NCBI GenBank assembly: GCA_016219965.1
Contig: JACRJM010000001.1
Coordinates: 1-64,000 of the forward strand
Direction: 5' to 3'
Source of the DNA: Candidatus Schekmanbacteria bacterium
GTDB taxonomy: Bacteria; Schekmanbacteria; GWA2-38-11; J061
DNA: 64,000 nucleotides
The notes under the pieces are model-generated. The model worked only from the letters and a program-made list of their open reading frames with translations, was not told the DNA's origin and did no database searches. Position numbers and translations under genes: made by a program. This document shows, one piece after another, positions 1,817 through 7,666 of the stretch. Each line of letters begins with the position of its first letter. The first letter of the stretch is position 1.

Positions 1817-3418
1817 TCAACCTTTAACAATCCCGCCTTCCCTGTATGCAAGAGCGCGGTAGGTTTTTTCAATCCTGTCCCAGTTTTCTTCGCGGTCAAG
1901 AGACCAGAAACGTCCTATAACATCCACAACTTTTCCTACGCCAAGCATTTTTGCTTTTTCCTCTACCTGCTTTATATAGATGCTTCCGCTTTCGGGGCGT
2001 TCTCCGCGCCGTCCAAGGAAGGAATGAATATAGACTTCATTTAATCCGTTCTCCTTTGCCATTTCCATTAAGGCAAAGAGATGTTTGATTGAACCATGTG
2101 AGCTGTAAAAAGAAACTATGCCGAGCAGATGGAGAGGTTTTTTATTTTCCTTTGATTCCTTCATTGCCTTCAAAAATGCAGGGTTCTTAAAAAAAGCTCG
2201 GTCTTCTATTGACTTATCTATCCTCAAACGATCTGAATAGAGTCTTCTTCCTGCGCCTATGTGAAGATGCCCCACTTCCGAATTTCCCACTGTTCCGTCA
2301 GGCATCCCAACTGCTTCCCCCGCAGCCTTTAGAGTTGTGAAGGGGTAATTGCTGATTAGATTGTCCATGTTTGGAGTGTTGCTTGCGGCAATTAAATTTC
2401 CATGCTTTTCATCCTTATGCCCCCAGCCATCAACAATAAGAAGGAGTACACGGTTTTTATTTTTCCCGGCATTTAAGCTTTTTCCCGCAATGATTGATTT
2501 TCCCGTCATTGATGGTGGAGTTTCAATTCCCATTATATCGAGTATGGTCGGGGCAATGTCTGTGAGTTCGCATCCTTCCCTCAATTTTATGTCATTTAAA
2601 GATTCATCTGATGGAGGAACCAGGATAAACGGTACTGGGCTGTCGGTATGTCCTGTGTCCACAGTACCTTCCGGATAAAACCATTTTTCTACTGTGCCGT
2701 GGTCAGCGGTTATGATGCAGTGATAGCCAGCCGAGCGCGCCGCCCTTATTACTCTCTCGATATTATGGTCAACTGCTTCTACTGCTTTCTTAACTGCATC
2801 TTCATTCTCAATGTGACCTACAACGTCAATGTTTGCAAAATTGATTATAAGGAGGTCAAACTTTTTCTCTCCAAGTCTTTTTTCTGCTTCAGATGCAACC
2901 TCGTCTATGGACATTTCAGGGCATGCATCGTAATTAGTGATATCTTTGCGGGATTGTATGAATATCCTTTCCTCGCCGGGGAAAGGCTCATTTCTTTTTC
3001 CGTTTAAAAAAAAGCTGAGGTGGACTGCCTTTTCCGATTCAACGATTTTGCCGACTTTTAAACCCTTGCCGCATATCACCTCGCACAATGTATCTCCAAT
3101 TTTTTCTTCAGGAGGGAATGCCACATCTGCTTTGAGATTTCTGTCATACTCGACCATGGTGACAAACTTTGCCGTGCGGTTGTCAATGCGTTTGAATTCA
3201 TGGAAGCCTTTTTCAGTGAAGCTTTTTGTGAGTTCTATCTCCCTCTCTCCCCTTATGTCATAAAATATGACGTATTCGCCGTCCCCGATTGCACCGGGCC
3301 TTGCGCCATTGACTTCAAGGACAAGAGGCTCTAATGCTTCATCTTCCTCACCGCGGTTGTATGCACCACGGACCGCTTCGCCCATCGGAAATTCTTTGGA
3401 ATTATTGCCGTCACCCAT
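1817..3418 (-). CDS. gpmI: Circularly permuted 2,3-bisphosphoglycerate-independent phosphoglycerate mutase family protein
   Basis: 533 residues, close to the usual ~510 for this family, which interconverts 3- and 2-phosphoglycerate via a phosphoserine. The order of parts is swapped. Residues ~14-310 match the normal C-terminal part: IRGERE (R56, R59), K130, NIDVVGH (D198, H202), TADHG (D239, H240), GHTDSPVP (H257). A linker (~311-321) follows. Residues ~322-533 then match the normal N-terminal part: LLIVDGWG (D330), GNSEVGH (phosphoserine S380), H441, IGRFW (R503) and LDRE (R509). All metal ligands and the Ser are retained. The normal GRD triplet in HAFLDGRDTPP reads RRG here, so the Asp (D154 in Bacillus numbering) is Gly472 and the substrate may differ. 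AGGAG precedes ATG 3418. Confidence 0.88.
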   Translation of the reverse strand: MGDGNNSKEFPMGEAVRGAYNRGEEDEALEPLVLEVNGARPGAIGDGEYVIFYDIRGEREIELTKSFTEKGFHEFKRIDNRTAKFVTMVEYDRNLKADVAFPPEEKIGDTLCEVICGKGLKVGKIVESEKAVHLSFFLNGKRNEPFPGEERIFIQSRKDITNYDACPEMSIDEVASEAEKRLGEKKFDLLIINFANIDVVGHIENEDAVKKAVEAVDHNIERVIRAARSAGYHCIITADHGTVEKWFYPEGTVDTGHTDSPVPFILVPPSDESLNDIKLREGCELTDIAPTILDIMGIETPPSMTGKSIIAGKSLNAGKNKNRVLLLIVDGWGHKDEKHGNLIAASNTPNMDNLISNYPFTTLKAAGEAVGMPDGTVGNSEVGHLHIGAGRRLYSDRLRIDKSIEDRAFFKNPAFLKAMKESKENKKPLHLLGIVSFYSSHGSIKHLFALMEMAKENGLNEVYIHSFLGRRGERPESGSIYIKQVEEKAKMLGVGKVVDVIGRFWSLDREENWDRIEKTYRALAYREGGIVKG

Positions 3419-3620
3419 CTTCCCTTATCTCCTGTTCTGATTATTGTTAAAAAATGTTACGGCCAATATGATATATTTAAAATGCTTTGTCAAAAGGGGT
3501 CTAAAGATGGATGTTGCTTTTGGTTAGATTAGCCTAAATATTGGTTGTTTTAGCTTAATTGATACTCTGATAGTTATATGAATTTCAGATTGTTAATTTT
3601 AATAAATTTAAAATTTTTTG

Positions 3621-3840: not shown

Positions 3841-5352
3841 ATGAATATTTATAAACGTTTAAGCTTCTGTTTGCTGACCTGTTTAATGTTTCTATCATCT
3901 TATATTAATATTTCTCATGCAGACATCACTTGTGAAAGTTTTCAAGACAATGCAATAGTGCCTAAGCCTGACAGGCTTACAATAATGCACTTAGCGCTTA
4001 CTCACGAGACTCAAAAAGGTCAATCAACTTTAATAGTAGGTCCAACAGGTATTACTGCGCTTATGGATGTTGCAGGTGATGCTAATAATAATGATGAGGA
4101 TTACATTGTAAGTAAAATAAGTGCTGTAAATACAATTATAAATAATGATTTTAGAGATGAAAACAATAATACTATTGATAAAGATTTAAATGAAGTTGAT
4201 TATGTTATTATCACCCACATGCATGGGGATCATATGGCGAACTTCGATGATTTGTTTGGTGGTGCAAATCCACGCCTGAAAATATCTAATACTGTTCCCG
4301 GAAAAACATATAAAGGGAAATTAGTTTATCGAGGATTTTATGATTGGTATGATGATTCAGCAGAAAGCGCAAAGTGGGAAATAATGTATGACACTGTTTA
4401 CGGAGGTAATTTCACAGATAAGATTTTCAAATTATGCTCTGGAACGGAAGGAGAGTCTCCATCAAGCTCTGCCCGGTATCCTGCAACCAATTGTTATAAT
4501 TTAGAAAGAGGAGATATTCAGCTTCCAGATGATACTGAAAGCTCAACAAACTTAACAAGTTTTATTGACTTGGGAATGACTAATACGGTGCAGTCAAAAC
4601 TTTACATTTATGGTGCAGACCGTTGGATAAGGACAACAGCTACGAACAATAGCGATTGGCCACATGCCCCTTCAGCAGGGACTAATAAAGAGAATGAAGC
4701 AAGTATTGTAGGCATACTTAACTATGGAAATTTTCGATATGCTTTTGGAGGTGATTTGTTGGGCAATGGTGCCGGTGCCAATACCGAGCAATACATTGTT
4801 AACAATATTGCAGATTTAAGAGAAGAGGGGACCAGCTCGACCTCTCTTATTGGGTATGACAATGCATGTTATGGAGTTGATGTATATTTGGCGCATCACT
4901 ACGGGAAGGATTCAAGTTCTCAAGAAAGTTTTGTTGATATGCTCTTGCCAGATAATACAAGCTCAAAACAAGTCATAGTAGGACTAAAGAAAGGATATGA
5001 TGATGCCCCAGAACGAGCAGCAATATGGAGATTATTGGGTTATTCAGAAACAAATTGCAATGGACTACCAACGAATCCTGATAGATCTACTGGACCGAGA
5101 GTAGATACTTCTGGAAGAGTATGGTTAACGAGAGATGGTGGGAACACAACAGATTGTACTGGAAAACCTTATGTCGACTATGGCTCTATTGTGTGCGCCG
5201 AAAACGCTAGCGGAAATGGAGCAGACACAATAATTCAAACCGAGCCACCGACATCGTATGGTGGAACAAATAACGTGAAAAAATATGTTACTAAGTACTA
5301 TGTAAGTTCTACAAAAAAAGCCTGCAAGGAGACTGTGACAGTTGAGCCGTAA
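3841..5352 (+). CDS. Secreted ComEC-type metallo-beta-lactamase-fold protein
   Basis: 503 residues with a Sec-type signal peptide (about 1-27, ending ISHA/D). Thr-His-Met-His-Gly-Asp-His at about residue 122 is the HxHxDH metal site. Later, NYGNFRYAFGGD supplies the bridging Asp, and YLAHHYGKDSS supplies the last His, in the same wording as the beta-lactamase domain of ComEC/Rec2 (hydrophobic strand, GD, then HHG-like turn). The binuclear metal site therefore looks complete. In ComEC this domain acts on DNA; here it is a stand-alone extracytoplasmic protein without the channel, so the substrate is unknown. AGGAGGG precedes the ATG. It is the first gene of a four-gene block of exported proteins. 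Confidence 0.8.
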   Translation: MNIYKRLSFCLLTCLMFLSSYINISHADITCESFQDNAIVPKPDRLTIMHLALTHETQKGQSTLIVGPTGITALMDVAGDANNNDEDYIVSKISAVNTIINNDFRDENNNTIDKDLNEVDYVIITHMHGDHMANFDDLFGGANPRLKISNTVPGKTYKGKLVYRGFYDWYDDSAESAKWEIMYDTVYGGNFTDKIFKLCSGTEGESPSSSARYPATNCYNLERGDIQLPDDTESSTNLTSFIDLGMTNTVQSKLYIYGADRWIRTTATNNSDWPHAPSAGTNKENEASIVGILNYGNFRYAFGGDLLGNGAGANTEQYIVNNIADLREEGTSSTSLIGYDNACYGVDVYLAHHYGKDSSSQESFVDMLLPDNTSSKQVIVGLKKGYDDAPERAAIWRLLGYSETNCNGLPTNPDRSTGPRVDTSGRVWLTRDGGNTTDCTGKPYVDYGSIVCAENASGNGADTIIQTEPPTSYGGTNNVKKYVTKYYVSSTKKACKETVTVEP

Positions 5353-7666
5353 AATTAAACAATATCTTTTCTTTTTTATTGTTATGTCGGTTGTTAGTAT
5401 TCTTTATACGGAAGCTTCAAATGAATATCTAACCTGTTACTGGGATGAACTTTATCAGGGTTCAGGCTTAACAATCAAATATGGTTGTGAACTATGCCAT
5501 ACCTTGAAAATGCCGGCGAGAAATCCTTATGGCAAGGATATTGAAATAGAGATGCTTAAAACATTAGCTCGCCTCCAAAAGGAAAAAAAGGAAGACGTAA
5601 AAGACATAGTAGTGGAGGCTTTGTTTAAAGTTGAAGGCAAGGACTCTGATGGAGATGATGTTTTAAATATTGCAGAAATCCAGTCTGGAACAAATCCCGG
5701 CGAGGGTGAAAAGGCAGAAACTGATAAGTTTACAGAAGACTGGTTTGAGCCTGCCGGTTTCATGAATGTGCCGCGATATATGTTTTCTATGGAAAAATTG
5801 AATGATGGGATGGTCTTGATAACAGGAGGCATTTCCGGCAGGCTTGCCCCTCTTTCAACTGCTGAACTCTTTGACTCACGTAATGGGAAATTTCTTCCTA
5901 CAGGCAAGTTAAATTCTGTGAGATGGGGACACACTTCTGTTTTATTACATGATGGAAGAGTGTTAATTGTTGGGGGTAGGGGAGACGAGAGTAAGAAAGA
6001 AGAGAAAGCTCTTAATTCTGTTGAAATATATGATCCGGTAAAAGGAGTTTTCAGTTTAACCGGGAAAATGCACTATGGCAGAAGAGGATGCACGGCAAAT
6101 CTTTTACCAGACGGAAGAGTTTTGGTAACTGGTGGAATGGGTTATTCTGATGACGGGAATTTTACCACTCTAAAATCTGCAGAAATATTTGATTCTAAAA
6201 CCAACAACTTCCAGATTTGTGGAGAGATGACTTCAAAGAGAGTTTTTCATAGAGCAATAACTCTTGATGACGGGAGGATATTAATTACCGGTGGCACGTC
6301 TAAATGGGGTGCTGAAGGGATAGATGTATTAAAAAGCTCTGAAATTTATGATCCCAAAACAGGTAAATTTATTGAATCAGCTATGATGAAGAATATGAGA
6401 ATTTCACATGGAATTTCAAAACTCTCTAATGGGAATGTCATGGTTTTTGGGGCAATGAATAATCCATTGGTAAACAGACAGGCATTATCAGTGTGTGAGA
6501 TTTTTGATGTGAAGAAAGGCGAGTTTGAAGATGCACCATCAATGAATGTTCCACGCGACCATTTTAAGCCAGAAGTCCTTGATGACGGACGAGTGCTGGC
6601 AGCAGGAGGCTCAAATCTTTATGATTTCCATTCGTCTGCGGAAATATTTAATCCTGAAAAGAAGCAATTCAACCTTACAGGAAGAATGTCGGTATGCAGG
6701 GATGATCCGGAGCTTGTCTTGCTTGATGACGGAAGGGTGCTGATGGCAGGAGGTATGAGCGCAGATTACTATATCCTACCACATGCGGATTATTTTAATC
6801 CGTCGTTTCTATCGCGAATCAATGGTTTAAAAGAAAAACTGTCAGAAATTAAAGATGACGAGTTTTCGAATGTTCCAATTCAGGGGAATATTTTTAAGAA
6901 ATTATTGTCATGGATTTCCTCCTCTGTGCAGAAAAAATCAGCAAGAGAAATGATAAATGTAAAACTTGATGAGCTGGCCTTAAGCATAAAAAATCATAAG
7001 TCAGAAGAAACAAAAAACCTGATTCAGGGTACATTGAGTTTACTTGATAGAAAAGAAGGGACATTACTTGCATCTTTATTTATTCCACAATTAACTCTTA
7101 TAAAAAACCAGCTAGAAAAGTTACCTGAGGAAACAAATATAGCTTTTGATATTAATTCAGAAACTTCCAATGAGATAGATAATAGGTATTCTTTTAAAAT
7201 TGCTCCTGACAATAATCTTCCAGCCATAAAATCTATTCTCTGGGATTTTGGTGATGGCTCTTTTTCATCTCAGTTAAATCCCGAACATGAATTCTGTTCC
7301 GGAAAGCATGTTGTTATGACAACTGTTATTTTTGATGATGGAAGAAAATCAATTAATCGGGAATTAGTAAAAGTTCCTGGTGGCGAAGCGGGCGTTTCAT
7401 ATCAATGTGATATTCAGCCTCTATTTGATCGCAATTGCATTGGATGTCACGGGACTCTTGGAGGAATATCTTTAACCTCTTATGAAGGATTAAAAAAAGG
7501 AAGTTACAGGCATAAAGATGTTGTTTCAGCAACCAAGCCGGAAGAAAGCCCTTTGATAGACAGTCTGGTAGGCAAGAGCTACCTTATGCCACCATGGGCT
7601 AAATGGGATGATGAAAAAATAGAATTAATAAAAGAATGGATAGAAAATGGAGCAGAAAAGAATTAA
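5342..7666 (+). CDS. Secreted kelch/PKD protein with haem c motifs at both ends
   Basis: 774 residues, exported (hydrophobic segment about 8-22). Domains in order: CELCH haem c motif at 49-53; a calcium-loop type repeat (DSDGDDVLNIAEIQSGTNP) near 100-120; kelch beta-propeller repeats, each with an [hydrophobic]-x-DGRVL-hydrophobic-x-GG core, about 140-500; a helical charged segment about 510-605; a PKD-like domain (WDFGDGS) about 615-683; and a C-terminal cytochrome module with CIGCH at 699-703 and a likely Met ligand in YLMPP. The TTG start overlaps the preceding gene by 11 bases, with AAGGAG upstream, so the two are translationally coupled. Extracellular electron transfer or substrate binding is possible; no function is known. 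Confidence 0.8.
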   Translation: MSRKIKQYLFFFIVMSVVSILYTEASNEYLTCYWDELYQGSGLTIKYGCELCHTLKMPARNPYGKDIEIEMLKTLARLQKEKKEDVKDIVVEALFKVEGKDSDGDDVLNIAEIQSGTNPGEGEKAETDKFTEDWFEPAGFMNVPRYMFSMEKLNDGMVLITGGISGRLAPLSTAELFDSRNGKFLPTGKLNSVRWGHTSVLLHDGRVLIVGGRGDESKKEEKALNSVEIYDPVKGVFSLTGKMHYGRRGCTANLLPDGRVLVTGGMGYSDDGNFTTLKSAEIFDSKTNNFQICGEMTSKRVFHRAITLDDGRILITGGTSKWGAEGIDVLKSSEIYDPKTGKFIESAMMKNMRISHGISKLSNGNVMVFGAMNNPLVNRQALSVCEIFDVKKGEFEDAPSMNVPRDHFKPEVLDDGRVLAAGGSNLYDFHSSAEIFNPEKKQFNLTGRMSVCRDDPELVLLDDGRVLMAGGMSADYYILPHADYFNPSFLSRINGLKEKLSEIKDDEFSNVPIQGNIFKKLLSWISSSVQKKSAREMINVKLDELALSIKNHKSEETKNLIQGTLSLLDRKEGTLLASLFIPQLTLIKNQLEKLPEETNIAFDINSETSNEIDNRYSFKIAPDNNLPAIKSILWDFGDGSFSSQLNPEHEFCSGKHVVMTTVIFDDGRKSINRELVKVPGGEAGVSYQCDIQPLFDRNCIGCHGTLGGISLTSYEGLKKGSYRHKDVVSATKPEESPLIDSLVGKSYLMPPWAKWDDEKIELIKEWIENGAEKN

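Follow-up and report, generated by a model that had tools for sequence, protein, structure and literature searches.

The gene at 1817..3418 on the minus strand codes for a 533-residue protein that sequence comparison establishes as a circularly permuted member of the cofactor-independent phosphoglycerate mutase (iPGM) lineage. It belongs to a clade that we read, with a probability of about 0.6, as two-metal phosphoserine enzymes derived from iPGM in which the substrate or the outcome of the reaction has changed. The window analysed here is a 64,000-nt stretch from Candidatus Schekmanbacteria bacterium (GCA_016219965.1, contig JACRJM010000001.1, positions 1 to 64,000, forward strand), and the gene was defined by an ORF call together with profile and structure-sequence matches. 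A single uninterrupted frame runs from an ATG at 3418 to the stop at 1817, a Shine-Dalgarno-like AGGAG (3429-3433), read directly from the sequence, lies about 10 nt upstream of the ATG, and the gene is present in a single copy in its own genome.

The similarity to iPGM falls into two blocks that are swapped relative to the canonical chain. Residues 3-211 of the B. stearothermophilus enzyme (PDB 1ejj) align with residues 321-529 of the permuted protein, and residues 218-509 align with residues 14-310 (E 3.4e-120). The TIGR01307 profile gives 486.7 bits, against a cut-off of 330.65, as a sum over two stretches, with profile positions 215-504 at residues 14-310; at the level of sequence, a chance match to iPGM is ruled out. 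The permutation proposed in the earlier note is borne out by these two-part matches, and the motif order that it listed is right, with both 1ejj blocks lying in one open frame. As in natural circular permutants, homologous segments are swapped, the old termini are joined, and one fold is predicted.

Domain boundaries were obtained by running Pfam on separate pieces of the protein, and all parts lie on the minus strand. The chain starts with the C-terminal part of the transferase domain (residues 11-92, 3143..3388; PF06415, iPGM_N, profile 135-216), which holds the new N-terminus and in which Arg56 and Arg59 are invariant in both permuted and canonical proteins. It is followed by the C-terminal part of the phosphatase domain, carrying Lys130 (residues 104-299, 2522..3109; PF01676 profile 65-251), a linker between the two original chain ends (about residues 311-321, 2456..2488), the N-terminal part of the phosphatase domain (residues 323-387, 2258..2452; PF01676 profile 2-60), and the N-terminal part of the transferase domain (residues 400-528, 1835..2221; PF06415 profile 1-129), where the new C-terminus sits. 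The junction between the MTG and DGWG motifs is 22-31 residues long throughout the permuted clade. The earlier note had placed the break at the transferase-to-phosphatase crossover, but the Pfam matches show the chain opened within the transferase domain, after position 129 and before position 135 of the iPGM_N profile. With the break at this site the domain insertion is inverted, and a continuous phosphatase block is inserted in a split transferase. In a canonical reference (L136) given the same Pfam analysis, PF01676 covers 4-499 and PF06415 sits inside it at 81-295; this order, phosphatase first and transferase inserted, is reversed in the 533-residue protein.

AlphaFold2, supplied with a 40-sequence alignment, returned a single confident model (pLDDT 89.0, pTM 0.84) in which both segments are predicted to form one iPGM fold. 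Foldseek matches in the PDB below E 0.001 are to iPGMs only, with about 300 of the 533 residues aligned in sequence order and TM-scores of 0.35-0.53, the pattern expected when a sequential aligner is given a permutant. Canonical iPGM (GpmI; TIGR01307; PDB 1ejj, 4nwj, 5kgn) shares full-length homology and both domains with the permuted protein, and the best PDB iPGM matches have mostly 32-41% identity in structural alignments.

Tandem duplication followed by trimming is the standard model for circular permutations (PMC3320104), and an ancestral iPGM gene was probably duplicated and trimmed in this way, such that the old C-terminus would have been joined to the old N-terminus via a short linker and the chain opened inside the transferase domain. 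No tandem intermediate toward the permuted iPGM was found. A published description of a permuted iPGM was likewise not found in the open-licence literature or in recent permutation surveys, which is a weak absence.

After removal of duplicates, the comparison set contained 46 permuted and 65 canonical proteins. In a tree of both segments in one register, the permuted and canonical proteins are split by one branch with an SH-aLRT of 100, and each segment alone splits them likewise (SH-aLRT 100); the same order thus defines a clade, as the earlier note had considered. The first 1ejj alignment block is ungapped with an offset of 318, and S380, D330, H441, R471, G472, R503 and R509 correspond to B. 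stearothermophilus positions 62, 12, 123, 153, 154, 185 and 191, respectively. Ser380 (codon 2279-2281) occupies the nucleophile position, and by alignment metal site 1 comprises Asp198, His202 and His257, and metal site 2 comprises Asp330, Ser380, Asp239 and His240. In C. elegans iPGM the metal ligands form two sets, Asp/His/His and Asp/Ser/Asp/His, and His, Asp and Arg are named among the phosphoglycerate-binding residues of iPGM (PMC5382265). His441, Arg471, Arg503 and Arg509 of the permuted protein all lie in the N-terminal part of the transferase domain.

The serine nucleophile and both sets of metal ligands are kept in 98-100% of the permuted rows, as expected of an iPGM, and with Lys130 and the arginines included the figure is 96-100%, the few exceptions being gaps in truncated rows where checked. 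Canonical and permuted proteins share the nucleophile, the substrate arginines and the two metal sites, and from this kept catalytic set we infer that the permuted enzyme is catalytic. Assisted by two divalent metals, Ser380 would accept the phosphoryl group of a phospho-hydroxyacid; by analogy with iPGM, the transferase half would hold the de-phosphorylated intermediate.

An unusual feature of the permuted proteins is a remodelled transferase loop, G469-R470-R471-G472-E473 (2000..2014, minus strand, placed from the ungapped 1ejj alignment). Canonical iPGMs, with a split phosphatase, have DGRD at this position (65 of 65), whereas the permuted proteins, with a split transferase, have GRRG (46 of 46). 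In the alignment, G472 stands opposite Asp154 of the B. stearothermophilus enzyme, an Asp to Gly change at what we take, from the 1ejj work, to be the substrate aspartate. Glu473, the next residue after the lost aspartate, is invariant in the permuted clade, and further positions are invariant and specific to it: His386, Arg397, Trp505, Glu510, Asn512, Thr242 and Tyr248.

Most genomes with a permuted gene encode a second mutase. Another recognised phosphoglycerate mutase is present in at least 33 of the 38 host genomes, and the idea that the permuted protein is the sole mutase everywhere was rejected on this count. Second mutases were counted by PRK04135, since PF10143 also takes in the homoserine-kinase-type PRK04200. 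A PRK04135 aPGM is over the cut-off in 27 of the 38 hosts, including all eight with reported completeness (581 bits in the window's own genome), and G412 has one more, split over two contigs; a canonical iPGM accompanies the permuted gene in G386, G388, G404 and G406, and a dPGM does so in G394. No other recognised mutase was found in G391, G396, G397, G402 and G407, which are metagenome bins of unreported completeness, and there glycolysis could depend on the permuted enzyme as its mutase; in G396, G402 and G407 the sole PF10143 member is of the PRK04200, or proposed homoserine kinase, type. The window's own genome also carries a PRK04200-type aPGM relative on contig C2 (L031:1324-2583, plus strand), located between homoserine dehydrogenase and aspartokinase genes, consistent with a role in the threonine pathway.

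The aPGM (ApgM) proteins (TIGR00306, PRK04135, PRK04024), glycolytic mutases by annotation, share the alkaline-phosphatase superfamily with the permuted protein, and the PRK04135 type is usually encoded in the same genome. The permuted protein is only locally similar to them (38.1 bits against a TIGR00306 cut-off of 320) and falls outside that family. PhpG (NF038358), an aPGM-type relative, is by its NCBIfam name, phosphonoformyl transferase, a precedent for a relative of the mutases that catalyses a different reaction; the permuted protein has no meaningful match to it (12.2 bits).

Every member of the clade has a rebuilt glycerate-side loop and a second mutase is present in most hosts, and it is from these two features that a changed substrate or outcome is proposed. 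The earlier designation of the protein as an iPGM therefore holds for its lineage, by homology, and its role as a phosphoglycerate mutase is in doubt. Most likely, the permuted enzyme either uses another, related phosphorylated acid or brings its reaction to a different end (as a mutase on another substrate or as a phosphatase), and is not the main glycolytic mutase. At slightly better than even odds, the clade is an enzyme family not described before, in which a new substrate or reaction came along with the permutation of iPGM and which works elsewhere in metabolism. Several points count against a changed substrate: Glu473 could take over the role of the lost aspartate, five hosts showed no other recognised mutase, gene neighbourhood points to no substrate, and many organisms carry two mutases, neither of which has a changed function.

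These points bear on the main alternative, that of an ordinary 3-/2-phosphoglycerate mutase whose order changed neutrally and in which Glu473 or Arg470 compensates for Asp154. We regard this as possible but clearly less probable: the retained nucleophile, metal and arginine positions, the invariance of Glu473, a TIGR01307 score above the cut-off and the five hosts without another recognised mutase all agree with it, yet it does not sit easily with a loop that is changed in all 46 members, along with several invariant positions near conserved active-site motifs, or with a second mutase in at least 33 of 38 hosts, including all eight of reported completeness.

If a changed substrate or outcome is correct, the clade would be a clean case of a new topology coinciding with new chemistry in a central glycolytic enzyme family. 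Automatic annotation would name the permuted protein an ordinary mutase, and NCBI-style models would then label the whole clade phosphoglycerate mutase on the summed score alone, so that the reaction may be assigned to the wrong gene when the metabolism of Aminicenantes and related bins is reconstructed. Both topologies are present together in some genomes, such as the Cloacimonadota bin G406, making a direct comparison possible; canonical L136 and permuted L058 are one such pair, encoded by a single Cloacimonadota genome.

A further lineage has the same permuted order inside a long protein, and is found in three genomes of one bacterial family (G230, G416 and G417). The protein is about 1450 residues in G230 and G416 (about 1450 residues at L140:3282-7646, minus strand, and at L142; the L141 copy is partial), and the start of the L140 protein resembles a signal peptide. 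These proteins are like the permuted clade in chain order but differ in that the iPGM region is only part of a long protein, the equivalents of Ser62 and most metal ligands are lost, and the DGxD loop is kept. They group beside the permuted clade with an SH-aLRT of 97, on a long branch, so this placement may be spurious; should it be correct, the permutation preceded the loop change. Since these relatives lack the nucleophile and most metal ligands, permuted iPGM folds can evidently persist without catalysis, but loss of catalysis in the window's own clade, leaving a binding or regulatory protein, is improbable, with the whole catalytic set conserved there across deep divergence.

The permuted order recurs in G001 (72% identical) and G043 (56%), and in total at 46 distinct loci that come from many assemblies made independently of one another. 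One of these loci, L050, belongs to an assembled chromosome of 4.35 Mb (CP070750.1); this recurrence excludes misassembly without recourse to raw reads. An assembly artefact or chimeric contig, which has nothing in its favour other than the unusual order itself, is extremely improbable, given that these independently assembled loci have an identical order and a conserved linker length and form one clade. Further permuted members turned up when 84,980 species genomes were scanned with the transferase segment, although the patterns were derived from the permuted clade's own segment and could overlook permuted proteins whose transferase is more canonical. A whole-protein search of 386 genomes, independent of the loop motif, gave at least eight permuted genomes (the window's own included) and the odd case G230; among the matches listed, the other full-length ones consist of two separate pieces, and none is a permuted protein with a canonical loop and an intact catalytic set. 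No relatives were found in viral contigs. The bins with permuted members are labelled Aminicenantes, Deltaproteobacteria, Cloacimonadota, Planctomycetota and Acidobacteriota, labels that can be wrong, and a taxonomy lookup places those labelled Deltaproteobacteria in Myxococcota or Thermodesulfobacteriota.

No conserved operon hinting at a substrate was found around the permuted genes; the neighbours vary between clades and look like synteny rather than a pathway. In the window, the neighbours at 669-1748 and 5342-7666 (both plus strand) include one protein that resembles a di-haem cytochrome c peroxidase and a kelch-like one that has CxxCH motifs, and no link between these and the permuted gene was seen. 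An imperfect inverted repeat (GGGAGTTTG / CAAACTCCC) lies at 1761-1806 between two convergent genes, and on the minus strand a T-rich stretch comes after it; the repeat was not called in the terminator scan. In seven related loci, all labelled Deltaproteobacteria (L043, L037, L092, L053, L044, L055 and L060), the next gene after the permuted one, in the same orientation, encodes a macro-domain protein, and pcm adjoins it in most of them.
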